In this document: positions 54,130 to 59,493 of the stretch, piece by piece
Numbering within the stretch: position 1 is the stretch's first letter
Layout: every line of letters begins with the position of its first letter
Assembly: GCF_002257665.1 (NCBI RefSeq)
Contig: NZ_MQWB01000001.1
Location: 3,297,119-3,361,118, forward strand
Source: Rubricoccus marinus
GTDB lineage: Bacteria > Bacteroidota > Rhodothermia > Rhodothermales > Rubricoccaceae
DNA length: 64,000 bases
Reading direction: 5' to 3'
The notes under the pieces: model-generated
The model's database searches: none
Told to the model about the DNA's origin: nothing
What the model saw: the letters and a program-made list of their open reading frames with translations, nothing else
Position numbers and translations under genes: made by a program

Positions 54130-54930
54130 CTACGCGCCGGCCGTGATTTGGAGGCCGTCGTAGCCCAGCCGCACGCCCTCAGGCAGCATCGCGTCGGCTT
54201 CTGCGTGGAGCACGTCGTGCGTCATGTGGACCAGCCACGTCTGGCGTGCGCCGATTTGCGCCGCGATGCCGGCGGCCTCCTCGAACGAGAGGTGCGTCGG
54301 GTGCGGCGTCGGCCGGAGCCCGTCGAGGACGAGCACGTCCACGCCTTCCAATAGCTCCAGGCTTTCGTCCGGTATGCGGCTCACATCGGTGAGGTACGCC
54401 AGAGGCCCGATGCGCCAGCCGAGGATGGGGAGATCGCCGTGGAAAACAGGGACCGGGATCACCTCCACCGTGGCCTCTGGCGCCGAACGGCTCGCGACCG
54501 TGAAGGCGTCCTCCACGGGCTGGAGCTCCAGGCGCGAGACGCCGGGATAGGTGCCGTCGCGGAAGATGTAGCTGAACATCTGCTCCAGCGCCGCGGCGGT
54601 GCGCGGGAGCGTGAGGACCGGGATCGGCGTGCGGTCGCGGAAAAAGAACGGCCGCAGGTCGTCCAGGCCGACGACGTGGTCGAAGTGCTCGTGCGTTACC
54701 AGCACGGCGTCCACGGTGCTCACCCCCCCGGCGAAGGCCTGTTGCCGGAAGTCCGGCCCGGCGTCGATCTGGAGGTGTACCGGCCCCGCGCTGGTGTGCG
54801 CGACCACGTGCGCCGAGGTCCGGAGCCGTGTGTCGCGCGGATCGTCGGATGTGCAGACCGCGCAGCTGCAGCCAATGATGGGCACACCGACGGATGTCCC
54901 CGTCCCGAGCAAGGTCGCGTCTACCCTCAT
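54130..54930 (-). CDS. MBL-fold metallo-hydrolase (PhnP-like)
   Basis: 266 residues. Start ATLLGTGTSVGVPIIGCSCAVCTSDDPRD (GTGTSxGVPxxGCxCxVC) is the PhnP/MBL signature. The metal site is THEHFDHVVGLDDLRPF, VPVFHGDLPILGWRIGPLAYLTDVS, and a late His (WLVHMTHDVL). Acts as a phosphodiesterase on cyclic phosphates in PhnP; no phn genes are nearby, so the substrate is open. Common in Bacteroidota. Confidence 0.88.
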   Translation of the reverse strand: MRVDATLLGTGTSVGVPIIGCSCAVCTSDDPRDTRLRTSAHVVAHTSAGPVHLQIDAGPDFRQQAFAGGVSTVDAVLVTHEHFDHVVGLDDLRPFFFRDRTPIPVLTLPRTAAALEQMFSYIFRDGTYPGVSRLELQPVEDAFTVASRSAPEATVEVIPVPVFHGDLPILGWRIGPLAYLTDVSRIPDESLELLEGVDVLVLDGLRPTPHPTHLSFEEAAGIAAQIGARQTWLVHMTHDVLHAEADAMLPEGVRLGYDGLQITAGA

Positions 54931-55015
54931 GCCTCCGGCGCCAGAGGCCGCTGGCGCATGGCGAGCGTTCCCTCTGCGCGAACGTGGCGCGCGAACGCGT
55001 TTGGACGCGCGCGCA

Positions 55016-55321
55016 TCACGCGTCGTCCTCGCCAGAGGTGCCCGCGAGCGCGTCTACGCCCGCGTCGAGCTCGCTCCACACGTCGTCTACGACCGCGCGA
55101 ACTGCGGGTCGCAAGTACAGCTCATCGTGCGGAAGCTCTCGCATCGACTCCGCGAGCACGACCAGTTGCGCCTCTGGCGGGTGCAGCTTGTTGAGCACCA
55201 CCACCTCGCGCCCAGCAACGGTGCACAGGCCGCCGCGGAACGTGCCGCGCTCGCGCCGCACGCGCACGTCGAGCGTGCGCAGGGCGTCTTCGAGTTCGCG
55301 GAGGACGGTGGCGGGCTTCAC
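55016..55321 (-). CDS. Conserved hypothetical small protein
   Basis: 101 residues: MKPATVLRELEDALRTLDVRVRRERGTFRGGLCTVAGREVVVLNKLHPPEAQLVVLAESMRELPHDELYLRPAVRAVVDDVW. A compact alpha/beta domain with one Cys; no known function, but the pattern (GxFxGGxCxVxGxxxVVLNKxxPxExQ) is of a small family I recall near RNase E/G genes of Bacteroidota-type genomes. It follows rne on the same strand. Confidence 0.65.
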   Translation of the reverse strand: MKPATVLRELEDALRTLDVRVRRERGTFRGGLCTVAGREVVVLNKLHPPEAQLVVLAESMRELPHDELYLRPAVRAVVDDVWSELDAGVDALAGTSGEDDA

Positions 55322-55397
55322 AGCGGGGTGCGGCGGGGTGGAACAGACGAACGCGCGCGAGAGGCGGATCCACCGCGCGCCAACGTAAAGCGGCCGG

Positions 55398-55413
55398 CCT
55401 CTGGCGCCAGAGG
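55398..55413. repeat. Perfect 16-bp palindrome after the RNase E/G gene
   Basis: CCTCTGGCGCCAGAGG, 39 bp beyond the rne stop on the minus strand. Confidence 0.75.
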
Positions 55414-55451
55414 CCGACCGCGGAGTCTACCGAGTGCGGAGCGCTCGGGCT

Positions 55452-58400
55452 CTAGTCGTCGCCGAGGGGGTACTTCGAGCGCAGCGGGCGCCCGGACTTC
55501 TCATCGACAACCTCGAACGAGAGCGGGTCCACCTTCGGGTCGTCCACGACGCTGAACGGGACGTTGCGGAGGCGGAACCGGAGCCGCGTGAGCGGGCTCG
55601 GGAAGCCGCGCCGCAGGTACGAGCCCATGAGAGGGTGCACGCTCACCACGATGGGCTTGCGAGCGAACTTCGCGTCCACGTTGTCGCGGTAGTGCGCGAG
55701 CCAGTCGCGGACGCGCTCGGCCAACTGGACCGGGCTGACGTCTTCGGACGGGCGCGAGCTCTCGCGGCGGGATTCCCCACGGCGGGACTCGCCGCGGCGC
55801 GAACGGCCGCCGCCAGAGGCCTCACGGCGTCCGCTCTGGCGCGGCTCTTCCTGCGCCTCCGGCGCGGGCTCCGGGTGGTCGCGCTCGGGCTGCACGATCT
55901 CGGTCGCGCCAGCGGCCTCCATCGCGTCCATGCCTTCGCTGTCGTCCTGCGCGGTGATGCTCGGGCGGAGCCTCTGGCGCGTGATCTGCATCACGCCGAA
56001 GTCGCTCATGCCGATCACCTTGGTGACGGCGCGGTCCTTGGCGAACTCCTTCTTGATCGCGTCGGTCACCTTGCGGCGGTCGCGGTCGTGGCGGAGGTCG
56101 ATAAAGTCCACGCAGATGATGCCGCCGAGGTCACGCAGGCGGAGCTGGCGGCCGATCTCCTTGGCGGCCTCCATGTTGACCGCGAGCAGGTTCTCCTCCG
56201 CGCGGCGCTTGCCACGCCCGGCGCGGCCCGAGTTCACGTCTACGACGTGCATCGCCTCGGTGTGCTCGATGATGAGGTAGCCTCCGCCCTTCATGTTGAC
56301 GCGCTCGGAGAACGCCTCTTCAACCTGCTTCTCGATTCCGCAGGCGCGGAAGACGGGCTGGTTGGAGCGGTGCATCTGCACCTTGTCCACCATGTCCGGC
56401 GCCACGGCCTTGACGTAGTTCTGCAGCTTGCGGTGCAGGTGCGGGTCGTCGATCAGGATGCGGTCGAAGTCCGACGTGAACAGGTCCCGCATGATGGACG
56501 AGACCATGTCCAGATCCTCATGCAGGAGGATCGGCGGCTCGGCGTTCCCGTTGTCCAGCTTCGCCTCGATCTTGTTCCACTTGTTAATGAGCAAGCGGAG
56601 GTCCTGGTCCAGCGCCTTCGCGTCCTGCCCACCTGCGACCGTGCGCACGATGACGCCACAGTTGGCCGGCTTGAGGCTGGAGGCCAGCGCGCGCAAGCGG
56701 CGGCGCTCCTTAGAGCTCTCGATCTTCTTCGAGACCGCCACGTAGTCCGCAGCGGGCACGAGGACGAGGAAGCGGCCCGCGAGCGAGATGTCGGTCGAGA
56801 CGCGGCTGCCCTTCGAGGAGATGGGCTCCTTGGTGATCTTGACGAGCACGCGGCTTCCGCGCTTCAGCAGGTCCTCGGCTTTGCCGTTCCACTGCGGAGC
56901 ACCTTTCTGGCCGCCACTGCGGCCGTTGCCGTTGCGTCCGCCTCTGGCGCCGCTGCGGCCGCGGTCGCGGGTGTCCTCGCTGCGCCCGCCGTCGTCGCTG
57001 CGGCGCTCGGAAGAGCGTCCACCACGGCTGCCCCGCGAGGAGCGGCTGTCGTCGTCCGAGTCGTCGTCCTTGCTGGACGATCCGCGGCCACCCCGGCGGC
57101 TACGGGAGCCTCTGGCGTCGTCGCTGTCGGCGTCGTCGTCCTTTTTGGAGCGGCTGCGGCGGGAGTCGCCGCTATCCGAGTCGTCGTCGCTCGTGGAGCG
57201 GGACCGGCGGCGTGAGCGCGAGTCGTCGCCAGATGCGTCGTCGTCGCTGCTGTCCGAGCGGGAGCGGCGGCGCGAGCGGCCGTTGTCGTCCTCGGAGGAG
57301 GAATCGGAATCCTCATCCTTCCGGCTGCGGCCCCGACGCGAGCGGCCAGAGTCCTCGTTGGAGTCGTCGTCGCTCTTGGAACGGCTGCGGCGTGAGCGGC
57401 CCGAGTTCTCGCCAGAGGCGTCGTCCTCACTGTCCGAGCGAGAGCGGCGCGAGCGCGGCTCGTCGTCCTGCTCTTCCTCCTTCGGCGCAGAGCGCCGCGA
57501 AGAGCGGCTGGGCGTCGAGAGGTCGATGGTGTGCTTGGCGGCGTGCGAGACGGGCTTCGCTTCCGCGGCGGGCTCGTCGGCCTCTGGCGCGGGGGCGTCC
57601 TCGGTCTTCTTCCGCGAGCGCGTGCGCTTCGGCTTCTCGGCCTTCTCCTCGGCTCCAGAGTCATCGCCAGAGGCCTCTGGCGTCTCGTCCTTCTTCTTGC
57701 GCGAGCGGCTGCGGGTGCGCTTCGGCTTCTCGTCCTCCGAGGCCTCGTCGGCCTCACGCTTCTCGTGGTCGGACTTCTCCTGCTTCGGCGTGCGGACGCG
57801 GCCCTTGGGCTTCTCGTCGGCTTCGTCGCCGGAGGCGTCGTCCGCTTCCTTTGCCTTGGACCGGCTGCGGGTGCGCTTCGGCTTCTCCTCCGAGGCGACC
57901 TCATCGTTGGACTCGTCGGCCTTTTTCTTGGAGCGGCTACGCGTGCGCTTGGGCTTCTCAGCCTCTGGCGCCTCGTCGGCATCGTTCGCGTCGGCGCCAG
58001 AGGCGTCGTCGGGCGCATCGGCCTTCTTCTTGCGCAAGCGGGTGCGCTTGGGCTTCTCCGCCTGCTCGTCGGAGGCAGCCTCTTCAGCGCCGCCGTCTAC
58101 GTCCTCCTTCTTCTTGCGCGAGCGCGTCTTGCGCTTCGGCTTCGGCGCCTCCTCGGCCTCTGGTGCGTCGCCGTCGGTCTTCGGGGCGTCGTCCTCCGCG
58201 GGCGCGTCGTCGGTTTTCTTCTTGGAGCGGGTGCGCGTGCGCTTCGGCTTCTCGGCCTCTGGCGCCTCGTCGGTGTCCTTGTTCTCGTCGCCAGAGGCGG
58301 GCTCCGGAGCGGGCTTGGGGGCCGGCTTCGGGCGGACCGAGCCGGACTTCTGCGTCAGGTCGATCACGTGCGGCAGGCGGCGTTCCTCCTGCTCCTCCTC

Positions 58401-58877
58401 TTCCTCGGTCTTGCGGCCGTCGCGGCCACTGCCTCCGCGCCGTCCCCGTCCGCCACGGCGGCGGCGGCGGCTCCGCGAGCGGCCCGTGCGGGCGGTTTTG
58501 GACTCGTCGGCGGCGTCCTCGACCTCGAGGGTTTCCTCCACGTCGGGCTCGCTCTCGTCGTCGGCGACACGCTTCTGCGGCGCCTTCGCGAGGATGGGGG
58601 CTTCCAGGCCGGGCACGTCCTCGCCGGCCATGACGAACAGCTGCGGCGCGTTCTCCGTCAGGTCCGAGAAGTGCAGGAACGCGTCCTGCTTCTGCCCGAT
58701 GTCGACAAACGCGGCGTGGATCTGGCCCATCACCTTGGCGACTTTGCCCAGGTAGATGTTGCCCAGCGTGCGGACGTTATCGGGGTGCTCGACGTACAGC
58801 TCGGCCAACTGGCCGTCTTCTACAATCGCGATGCGAGCGCGGTCTTTGCTCGCGTTGATGACGATCTCCTTCTTCAT
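55452..58877 (-). CDS. rng: RNase E/G family endoribonuclease with giant insertion in the S1 domain
   Basis: 1141 residues. RNase E/G starts normally (MKKEIVINASKDRARIAIVEDGQLAELYVE, GNIYLGKVAKVMGQIHAAFVDIGQKQDAFLHFSDL), then at about residue 75 leaves the S1 domain for ~590 residues of low-complexity KPKRTRSRSKKK, acidic and Ser/Arg-rich sequence. At about 664 the S1 fold resumes (LLKRGSRVLVKITKEP, SLAGRFLVLVP). The catalytic part follows, with VVDVNSGRAGRGKRRAEEN (Asp ~880) and GGIICVDFIDL (Asp ~924), spaced as D303/D346 of E. coli RNase E. The Zn-link CPxC after QRLRPS is missing. It processes rRNA and mRNA 5' ends. Promoter should be in the 616-bp gap upstream. Confidence 0.9.
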   Translation of the reverse strand: MKKEIVINASKDRARIAIVEDGQLAELYVEHPDNVRTLGNIYLGKVAKVMGQIHAAFVDIGQKQDAFLHFSDLTENAPQLFVMAGEDVPGLEAPILAKAPQKRVADDESEPDVEETLEVEDAADESKTARTGRSRSRRRRRGGRGRRGGSGRDGRKTEEEEEQEERRLPHVIDLTQKSGSVRPKPAPKPAPEPASGDENKDTDEAPEAEKPKRTRTRSKKKTDDAPAEDDAPKTDGDAPEAEEAPKPKRKTRSRKKKEDVDGGAEEAASDEQAEKPKRTRLRKKKADAPDDASGADANDADEAPEAEKPKRTRSRSKKKADESNDEVASEEKPKRTRSRSKAKEADDASGDEADEKPKGRVRTPKQEKSDHEKREADEASEDEKPKRTRSRSRKKKDETPEASGDDSGAEEKAEKPKRTRSRKKTEDAPAPEADEPAAEAKPVSHAAKHTIDLSTPSRSSRRSAPKEEEQDDEPRSRRSRSDSEDDASGENSGRSRRSRSKSDDDSNEDSGRSRRGRSRKDEDSDSSSEDDNGRSRRRSRSDSSDDDASGDDSRSRRRSRSTSDDDSDSGDSRRSRSKKDDDADSDDARGSRSRRGGRGSSSKDDDSDDDSRSSRGSRGGRSSERRSDDGGRSEDTRDRGRSGARGGRNGNGRSGGQKGAPQWNGKAEDLLKRGSRVLVKITKEPISSKGSRVSTDISLAGRFLVLVPAADYVAVSKKIESSKERRRLRALASSLKPANCGVIVRTVAGGQDAKALDQDLRLLINKWNKIEAKLDNGNAEPPILLHEDLDMVSSIMRDLFTSDFDRILIDDPHLHRKLQNYVKAVAPDMVDKVQMHRSNQPVFRACGIEKQVEEAFSERVNMKGGGYLIIEHTEAMHVVDVNSGRAGRGKRRAEENLLAVNMEAAKEIGRQLRLRDLGGIICVDFIDLRHDRDRRKVTDAIKKEFAKDRAVTKVIGMSDFGVMQITRQRLRPSITAQDDSEGMDAMEAAGATEIVQPERDHPEPAPEAQEEPRQSGRREASGGGRSRRGESRRGESRRESSRPSEDVSPVQLAERVRDWLAHYRDNVDAKFARKPIVVSVHPLMGSYLRRGFPSPLTRLRFRLRNVPFSVVDDPKVDPLSFEVVDEKSGRPLRSKYPLGDD
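56889..58655 (-). other. Disordered insertion inside the S1 domain of RNase E/G
   Basis: Codes for residues ~75 to ~663 of the ribonuclease. Contains about ten versions of EKPKRTRSRSKKK, an Arg-rich block (SRSRRRRRGGRGRRGG), then a Ser/Asp/Arg zone (SRSDSEDDASGENSGRSRRSRSKSDDD...). Codons are partly repetitive, so length may vary among strains. Confidence 0.85.
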
Positions 58878-59493
58878 GGAGGTGTGGGTGGCGTCTGCGG
58901 CGCACGCGGACGGGCGCTCCGCCAGAGGCGGAATGCGGGGCCTCTGGCGCGAGCAGTGTGCTCGCGGCGAGCGGTCCGTTCATGGAGAACGGTCCGGTCG
59001 CGGAGGCGGCCGTCGGGGCCGGGGACGCAGTGGAAGGCCTGGGGCGGACGGCGCGGCGCCCCACGGCGGCACGCGCGATCCAGCCGGTCAGCGCGCTCAG
59101 GAGGAGCGCGCCGAGGAACAGGCCGAAGTCGGGGGAAAGGGGGGAGCGCATGGGATGGGACCGCATCGCCCAGGGTGGGCGGCTCCAGAGGAGCGGGGCG
59201 GCGCCAGAGGCGTCCTGACAGTCTGTGGGGAGCCCGGCGCGTCTTCAACACAAAACCATAGCGCGCGGGGCTCGGTAAGGGAAGCTACGGGGCGGCAGGC
59301 CCGAGAACGGCCGCGATCCGTGAGACGCGTCGTATCCGCGCCGTCTTCCCCATTCTCGCGGCTCCGTATCGCGAACCTCGCCCGTCGGACTCCGTTCGAA
59401 TCCGACGCGCCTGATTCCAGGTGCCTCTCTGTTTTGTTATCTGCGGCCCCGCCTTGTCGGGATGAGTGGGCCGCCCGCCTCCTTTCCCCAACG
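58878..59493. other. Long gap between rng and citrate synthase
   Basis: 616 bp. Only weak coding signal: a small minus-strand frame from 59166 with a membrane helix (FGLFLGALLLSALTGWIARAA) that runs into the rng start. Two half-sites of the iterated repeat are near 58919 and 58939. The right half (59270-59493) is less GC-rich and should hold the citrate synthase promoter. No RNA gene seen. Confidence 0.7.

Follow-up and report, generated by a model that had tools for sequence, protein, structure and literature searches.

A long, predicted disordered insertion within the S1 domain of RNase E/G in Rubricoccus marinus and its relatives

The locus and the enzyme core

The window analysed here is a stretch of 64,000 nucleotides from Rubricoccus marinus SG-29T (family Rubricoccaceae, Rhodothermota), whose published draft genome (PMC5609423) has an assembly of 4,430,441 bases in 15 contigs. 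On the reverse strand of the window lies a gene for RNase E/G, the only such gene that a PF10150 search finds in the genome. Its reading frame begins with ATG and contains no internal stop codons. The gene and the parts of its protein are listed below in coordinates of the window; f1 denotes the protein's own family, and f13, f3 and so forth denote other families of our sample.

55452..58877 (-), complete RNase E/G gene, 1141 aa, stop codon at 55452-55454
58653..58877 (-), residues 1-75: N-terminal strands and first half of S1 (homology to E. coli RNase E 2-74; AlphaFold)
56880..58652 (-), residues 76-666: the whole S1 insert, ~591 aa (homology, family alignment, AlphaFold)
58518..58652 (-), residues 76-120: conserved block A, a short helix (77-83) followed by acidic ...APQKRVADDESEPDVEETLEVE (alignment of eight genomes, dN/dS, models)
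58407..58487 (-), residues 131-157: basic Arg/Gly/Ser-rich stretch, composition conserved in eight genomes
58383..58406 (-), residues 158-165: acidic run EEEEEQEE, nearly invariant in the eight-genome alignment
58341..58376 (-), residues 168-179: first IDL motif, LPHVIDLTQKSG, found in 8/8 f1 and 3/3 f13 inserts
57594..58250 (-), residues 210-428: eight degenerate basic repeats of the form KPK(R/G), at intervals of 24-36 residues, in alternation with acidic stretches
57507..57539 (-), residues 447-457: second IDL motif, HTIDLS (motif search)
56892..57506 (-), residues 458-662: Arg/Ser/Asp/Gly-rich low-complexity stretch (sequence, composition, AlphaFold)
55953..56879 (-), residues 667-975: remaining half of S1, together with the 5'-sensor and the RNase H and DNase I parts (homology)
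55740..55952 (-), residues 976-1046: second disordered stretch, at the position of the zinc link CPxCxGxG (no CxxC; pLDDT below 50)
55455..55733 (-), residues 1049-1141: small domain, the protein ending ~13 residues beyond it

The protein matches TIGR00757 (RNaseEG) in two stretches (417.5 bits against a cut-off of 325.95), and PF10150 matches residues 698-969 (E 5.8e-96; 321.5 bits against a curated cut-off of 25.5). The catalytic residues D880, N882 and D924, which correspond to E. coli Asp303, Asn305 and Asp346, are present and are invariant in 40 sequences; the 5'-sensor pair R745-T746 (E. coli Arg169-Thr170) is present as well. The residues of the S1 uracil pocket flank the insert: F57 and F67 precede it, and K689-G690 follow it (E. 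coli Phe57, Phe67 and Lys112-Gly113). Since the protein ends soon after the small domain, it has no C-terminal scaffold.

Position and predicted disorder of the insert

A reading of this locus from sequence only had claimed that some 590 disordered, charged and repeat-bearing residues interrupt the S1 domain of the enzyme. The interruption is real. Compared by phmmer with solved structures, the protein aligns with E. coli RNase E over residues 3-74 (E. coli 2-74) and again over residues 667-975 (E. coli 90-397); that is, about 592 residues lie between S1 residues 73 and 667, where E. coli has 16 (73 to 90). In Caulobacter RNase E (PDB 4OXP) the same two points of S1 are chain positions 94 and 166, with 71 residues between them. 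Because 4OXP aligns at the same points, we conclude that the insert lies at the joint where alpha-proteobacterial RNase E is known to carry its insertion.

Structure prediction, which the sequence-only reading had proposed as a check, agrees with it on disorder. In an AlphaFold2 model built from 40 homologous sequences, S1 strands are predicted before the insert (41-50, 55-59, 65-69) and after it (676-683, 692-694), with pLDDT mostly 73-95. Over residues 94-661 pLDDT is almost everywhere below 50, with no secondary structure. A second model, of a relative with a 324-aa insert, gives the same picture, and in both models helix 77-83 is the only helix predicted in the insert. The nearest folds by Foldseek include E. 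coli RNase E (E 2.4e-34) and 4OXP (E 1.4e-8). The insert is 50% charged, neutral overall and only 4% hydrophobic or aromatic; its charge blocks are 2.4 times those of shuffled sequence (z 10).

Insert length among relatives

PF10150 is found in 108 of 114 genomes of the order. For 59 sampled proteins, 50 from Rhodothermales and 9 from outside the order, we measured how many residues are inserted at the S1 joint. All eight sampled f1 genomes carry 324-591 aa at this joint, with shared blocks and the same start codon, so that alignment with relatives, another check proposed beforehand, bears out the insert too. Elsewhere in the order the lengths are 388-436 aa in f13, 279-287 in f3, 185-258 in f11, 124 in f9, 101-114 in f2, 115 in f4, 78-113 in f5, 74-92 in f56, 77-96 in f10, 81 in f12, 26-46 in f7 and 42-81 in f8. 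Outside the order they are 29-92, with the exception of one Chlorobiota genome at 372.

A tree built from the conserved parts places f1, f13 and f3 together (88/88 support), and all three have long inserts. Family f11 and the Chlorobiota case fall elsewhere on this tree, and long inserts therefore arose or were kept more than once. The Chlorobiota case (MAG 277c_20; L099 / L124) is an independent, charged insert of 372 aa at the same S1 joint, in a protein that has kept its zinc link. When the genome contigs were searched with the family alignment, only four loci were returned, L124 among them; this search picked up low-complexity patterns. Apparent N-terminal extensions of ~240-264 aa in two relatives were rejected: TTG starts in their genes line up with the ATG of the Rubricoccus marinus gene.

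A sequencing or assembly artefact, which the earlier reading had named as a way in which it might fail, is ruled out by these eight genomes, since every sampled member of the family carries an insert at this place. The computational evidence establishes the existence of the insert, its predicted disorder, its modular conservation (see below) and its inheritance throughout the family.

Conserved modules and selection

The f1 inserts share an order of modules: the 45-residue block A, the basic Arg/Gly/Ser stretch, EEEEEQEE and a (L/S)PxVIDLT-like motif, with a second IDL motif deeper within most of them. The eight f1 inserts together hold 16 copies of the IDL motif, against 0.08 expected from shuffling. 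We searched the Rubricoccus marinus genome by sequence with the IDL region and found only RNase E itself; VIDLT occurs at one other site in the genome, in a short protein with no obvious RNA role. No homology of the low-complexity sequence of the insert to known scaffolds could be demonstrated.

We estimated dN/dS by the method of Nei and Gojobori in four pairs with unsaturated synonymous sites. Block A gives 0.06-0.14, the 62 residues that follow it 0.14-0.58 and the enzyme core 0.13-0.27; for the variable part (residues 183-650), whose alignment is unsure, the ratio is about 0.8-1 in most pairs. Judged by these ratios and by the alignment, parts of the insert are under purifying selection, namely the acidic block, the Arg/Gly stretch, EEEEEQEE and the IDLT motifs, and in block A this selection is about as strong as in the enzyme core. 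The fast-changing remainder of the insert retains its composition and its charge blocks. Throughout the f1 and f13 inserts, the fraction of charged residues is 0.39-0.50 and charges nearly cancel to a net of 0, hydrophobic and aromatic residues amount to 4-11%, and charge blocks have z between 4.5 and 14.5. This insert has eight KPK(R/G) repeats, its counterpart in the sister species has four and the others have between none and three; among the eight, synonymous sites have diverged while the peptide has been kept.

Growth of the insert through the iterated element CGCCAGAGGC was considered and found unconvincing, with 10 copies against 5.9 expected. This 10-mer is a feature of the genome at large: it has 212 copies in the window and 14,176 in the genome, against 61 for a reversed-pattern control. 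It occurs about once per 310 bases on both strands, also within genes (for example at 55811, 56940, 57665 and 57673), and its edges are sharp, with 212 exact copies in the window against 89 with one mismatch. A genome of the same genus has 99 copies and other family members have 8-77, near the control level. CGCCAGAGGC is a species-specific, HIP1-like iterated motif.

The zinc link and the place of the putative scaffold

The cysteines of the zinc link, CPxCxGxG, are absent from 50/50 Rhodothermales proteins and present in 9/9 from outside the order, and this order-wide absence may reflect a single loss. In most families the site is taken by a longer disordered or coiled-coil-like stretch; in f7 it holds 106-158 residues whose sequence looks coiled-coil-like by eye. 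In E. coli, mutation of the zinc-link motif prevents tetramer formation and lowers activity (PMC2631609). The link is a feature of the E. coli-type quaternary structure, and not of the profile families TIGR00757 and PF10150.

Families with large S1 inserts have short C-terminal tails, and the clade of f1, f13 and f3 has no C-terminal scaffold. Conversely, f5 and f56 (L141-L150, L152-L155) combine small S1 inserts with charged C-terminal tails of 197-449 aa. Some f5 tails end in (S)NRF(M/V)KIDL(R/T), which resembles the SRFVIDLT motif of the f13 inserts. With a motif profile trained only on f1 and f13, two f5 tails rank at the top of 78 segments (p 0.001 and 0.0025), a link that is weak after correction and post hoc, the broader pattern having been written after the f5 tails were seen. 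Because only these two stand out in 78 tests, the idea of a shared motif is tentative. Two f56 tails also share the ending FSS(Q/H)H, and one f5 tail is similar. A wider scenario, which we would not yet call probable, is that after loss of the zinc link the families of Rhodothermales placed a large disordered region at the S1 loop, at the zinc-link joint or at the C-terminus, keeping a common IDL docking motif, and that the degradosome of Rubricoccaceae would thus be built from inside the RNA-binding domain.

A proposed relocated scaffold and its alternatives

We lean, with modest confidence, towards the reading that this is a functional RNase E/G whose scaffold has been relocated to the beta3-beta4 loop of S1, where it would concentrate RNA and partners at the RNA entry site. 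The insert probably does the job of the C-terminal tail of E. coli RNase E. The two halves of S1 are likely to fold together around the insert, given their homology, the intact pocket residues and the AlphaFold model, so that the loop would be held at the mouth of the RNA channel. Its alternating positive and negative blocks and Arg/Gly stretches could make weak contacts with RNA and favour self-association, so that RNA and enzyme would be concentrated much as they are in BR-bodies. The conserved IDL motifs may dock partner proteins, perhaps a DEAD-box helicase or PNPase, and the acidic block A, lying beside S1, may compete with RNA for the channel and tune activity, as has been proposed for the acidic helix of Caulobacter. 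A role in RNA binding, condensate formation or partner recruitment fits the make-up of the insert and its conserved motifs.

Several observations count in favour of a relocated scaffold. The insert is present in all eight f1 genomes and in f13 and f3, a clade with no scaffold at the C-terminus; selection on block A, the preserved composition and charge blocks and the excess of IDL motifs suggest function; and RhlB binding and the acidic helix in Caulobacter, together with the charge-block disordered regions of BR-bodies, offer precedents. The genome encodes PNPase and three DEAD-box RNA helicases, and of these proteins two helicases and PNPase have tails that are rich in Arg and Gly or of similarly charged low complexity. 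The C-terminal tail of helicase L128 (contig C1, near 3544845), with EKPRKKRRR, EASGDD and KKKRSRSRSRRRK, is like the insert in its composition and in its short repeats; the tails of helicase L127 and PNPase L156 are Arg/Gly-rich. Against the scaffold reading, the genome encodes RNase Y (C1:89985-91685), and RNase E may therefore not be the main hub of decay; no match to RNase J rises above the family cut-off in the genome. Family f7, moreover, evidently manages with S1 inserts of 26-46 aa.

The main rival, which we consider rather unlikely, is neutral expansion around a small functional part: the S1 loop would tolerate disorder and repeat expansion, and only the proximal 100 residues, from block A to the first IDL motif, would be functional. 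The range of lengths, from 324 to 591 aa in the family and from 26 to 591 in the order, is what such growth would produce, as are the near-neutral dN/dS of residues 183-650 in most pairs and the changing number of KPK repeats between this species, its sister and the others. However, all members keep the composition, the neutral net charge and the charge blocks, most inserts contain a further IDL motif deep in their sequence, and every family member retains more than 320 aa. An autoinhibitory or substrate-selecting arm, in which the acidic block together with the charged loop would sit in the RNA channel of S1, or gate it, and serve no scaffold role, would fit the finding that few segments of the protein are as constrained as block A, which adjoins the S1 pocket. 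It has a parallel in the Caulobacter insert, where a helix lies in the RNA site and presents acidic side chains there (PMC4245959). Yet 591 residues and IDL motifs would be superfluous for gating, and AlphaFold gives no confident placement of block A in the channel; we regard such an arm as improbable. To removal of the insert by protein splicing or as an intron, or to misassembly, we give almost no weight. Nothing but the extreme length speaks for it, while no Pfam domain, intein domains included, is found within the insert, no Rfam match, introns included, occurs at 54900-59400 up to E 1, and eight independent genomes carry the insert in the same frame with shared blocks under purifying selection.

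A survey of 2011 described RNase E/G of Bacteroidetes/Chlorobi as 503-570 aa long and judged them, by size, unable to form a degradosome (PMC3071783). The enzymes of Rhodothermales reach well over 1000 aa and carry scaffold-like regions at three different places. If the relocated scaffold is confirmed, the attachment site of the scaffold would be free to evolve, and Rubricoccus marinus would be a cultured organism in which to study how a scaffold works if it is attached where RNA enters the enzyme. The order-wide loss of the zinc link also raises the question of how these enzymes form tetramers.

Comparison with known systems

RNase E homologues have reportedly been sorted into five types by Ait-Bara and Carpousis. 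The sequence-only reading had held the present architecture to be undescribed, which is too strong, since S1 insertions are described in alpha-proteobacteria and plants and the disordered regions of BR-bodies are known. Voss et al. (2014) reported charged, disordered S1 insertions of ~50-150 aa in alpha-proteobacterial and plant RNase E (PMC4245959), and a 50-aa insertion in Wolbachia RNase E has been called typical of alpha-proteobacteria. What is new, as far as the literature consulted shows, is the length of the insert (about four times), its lineage and its modular conservation.

The closest likeness is to Caulobacter crescentus RNase E (4OXP), whose insertion is charged, predicted disordered and at the same S1 joint. 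An N-terminal fragment containing that insertion binds RhlB, and in the crystal structure the insertion is partly helical, with an acidic helix where RNA binds E. coli RNase E (PMC4245959). It is far shorter, with 71 residues between the aligned points against ~592 here, and its sequence bears no recognisable likeness to ours; moreover, Caulobacter keeps the zinc link and a C-terminal scaffold, both absent from the Rubricoccus marinus enzyme. Arabidopsis chloroplast RNase E/G, likened here by description only, also has a charged S1 insertion, shorter as described and important for activity, which its deletion reduces (cited in PMC4245959).

In Caulobacter and Sinorhizobium, charge-block disordered regions of RNase E form BR-bodies. 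Those regions share with our insert great length and alternating charge blocks; they are C-terminal and experimentally shown, whereas the one in Rubricoccus marinus is internal and predicted. Finally, the enzyme resembles the type I RNase E of E. coli in its catalytic core, in the 5'-sensor and in the residues that form the S1 pocket. The E. coli enzyme has a zinc link, and its long scaffold is C-terminal, with 16 residues at the joint in S1, whereas here the scaffold-like region lies within S1.
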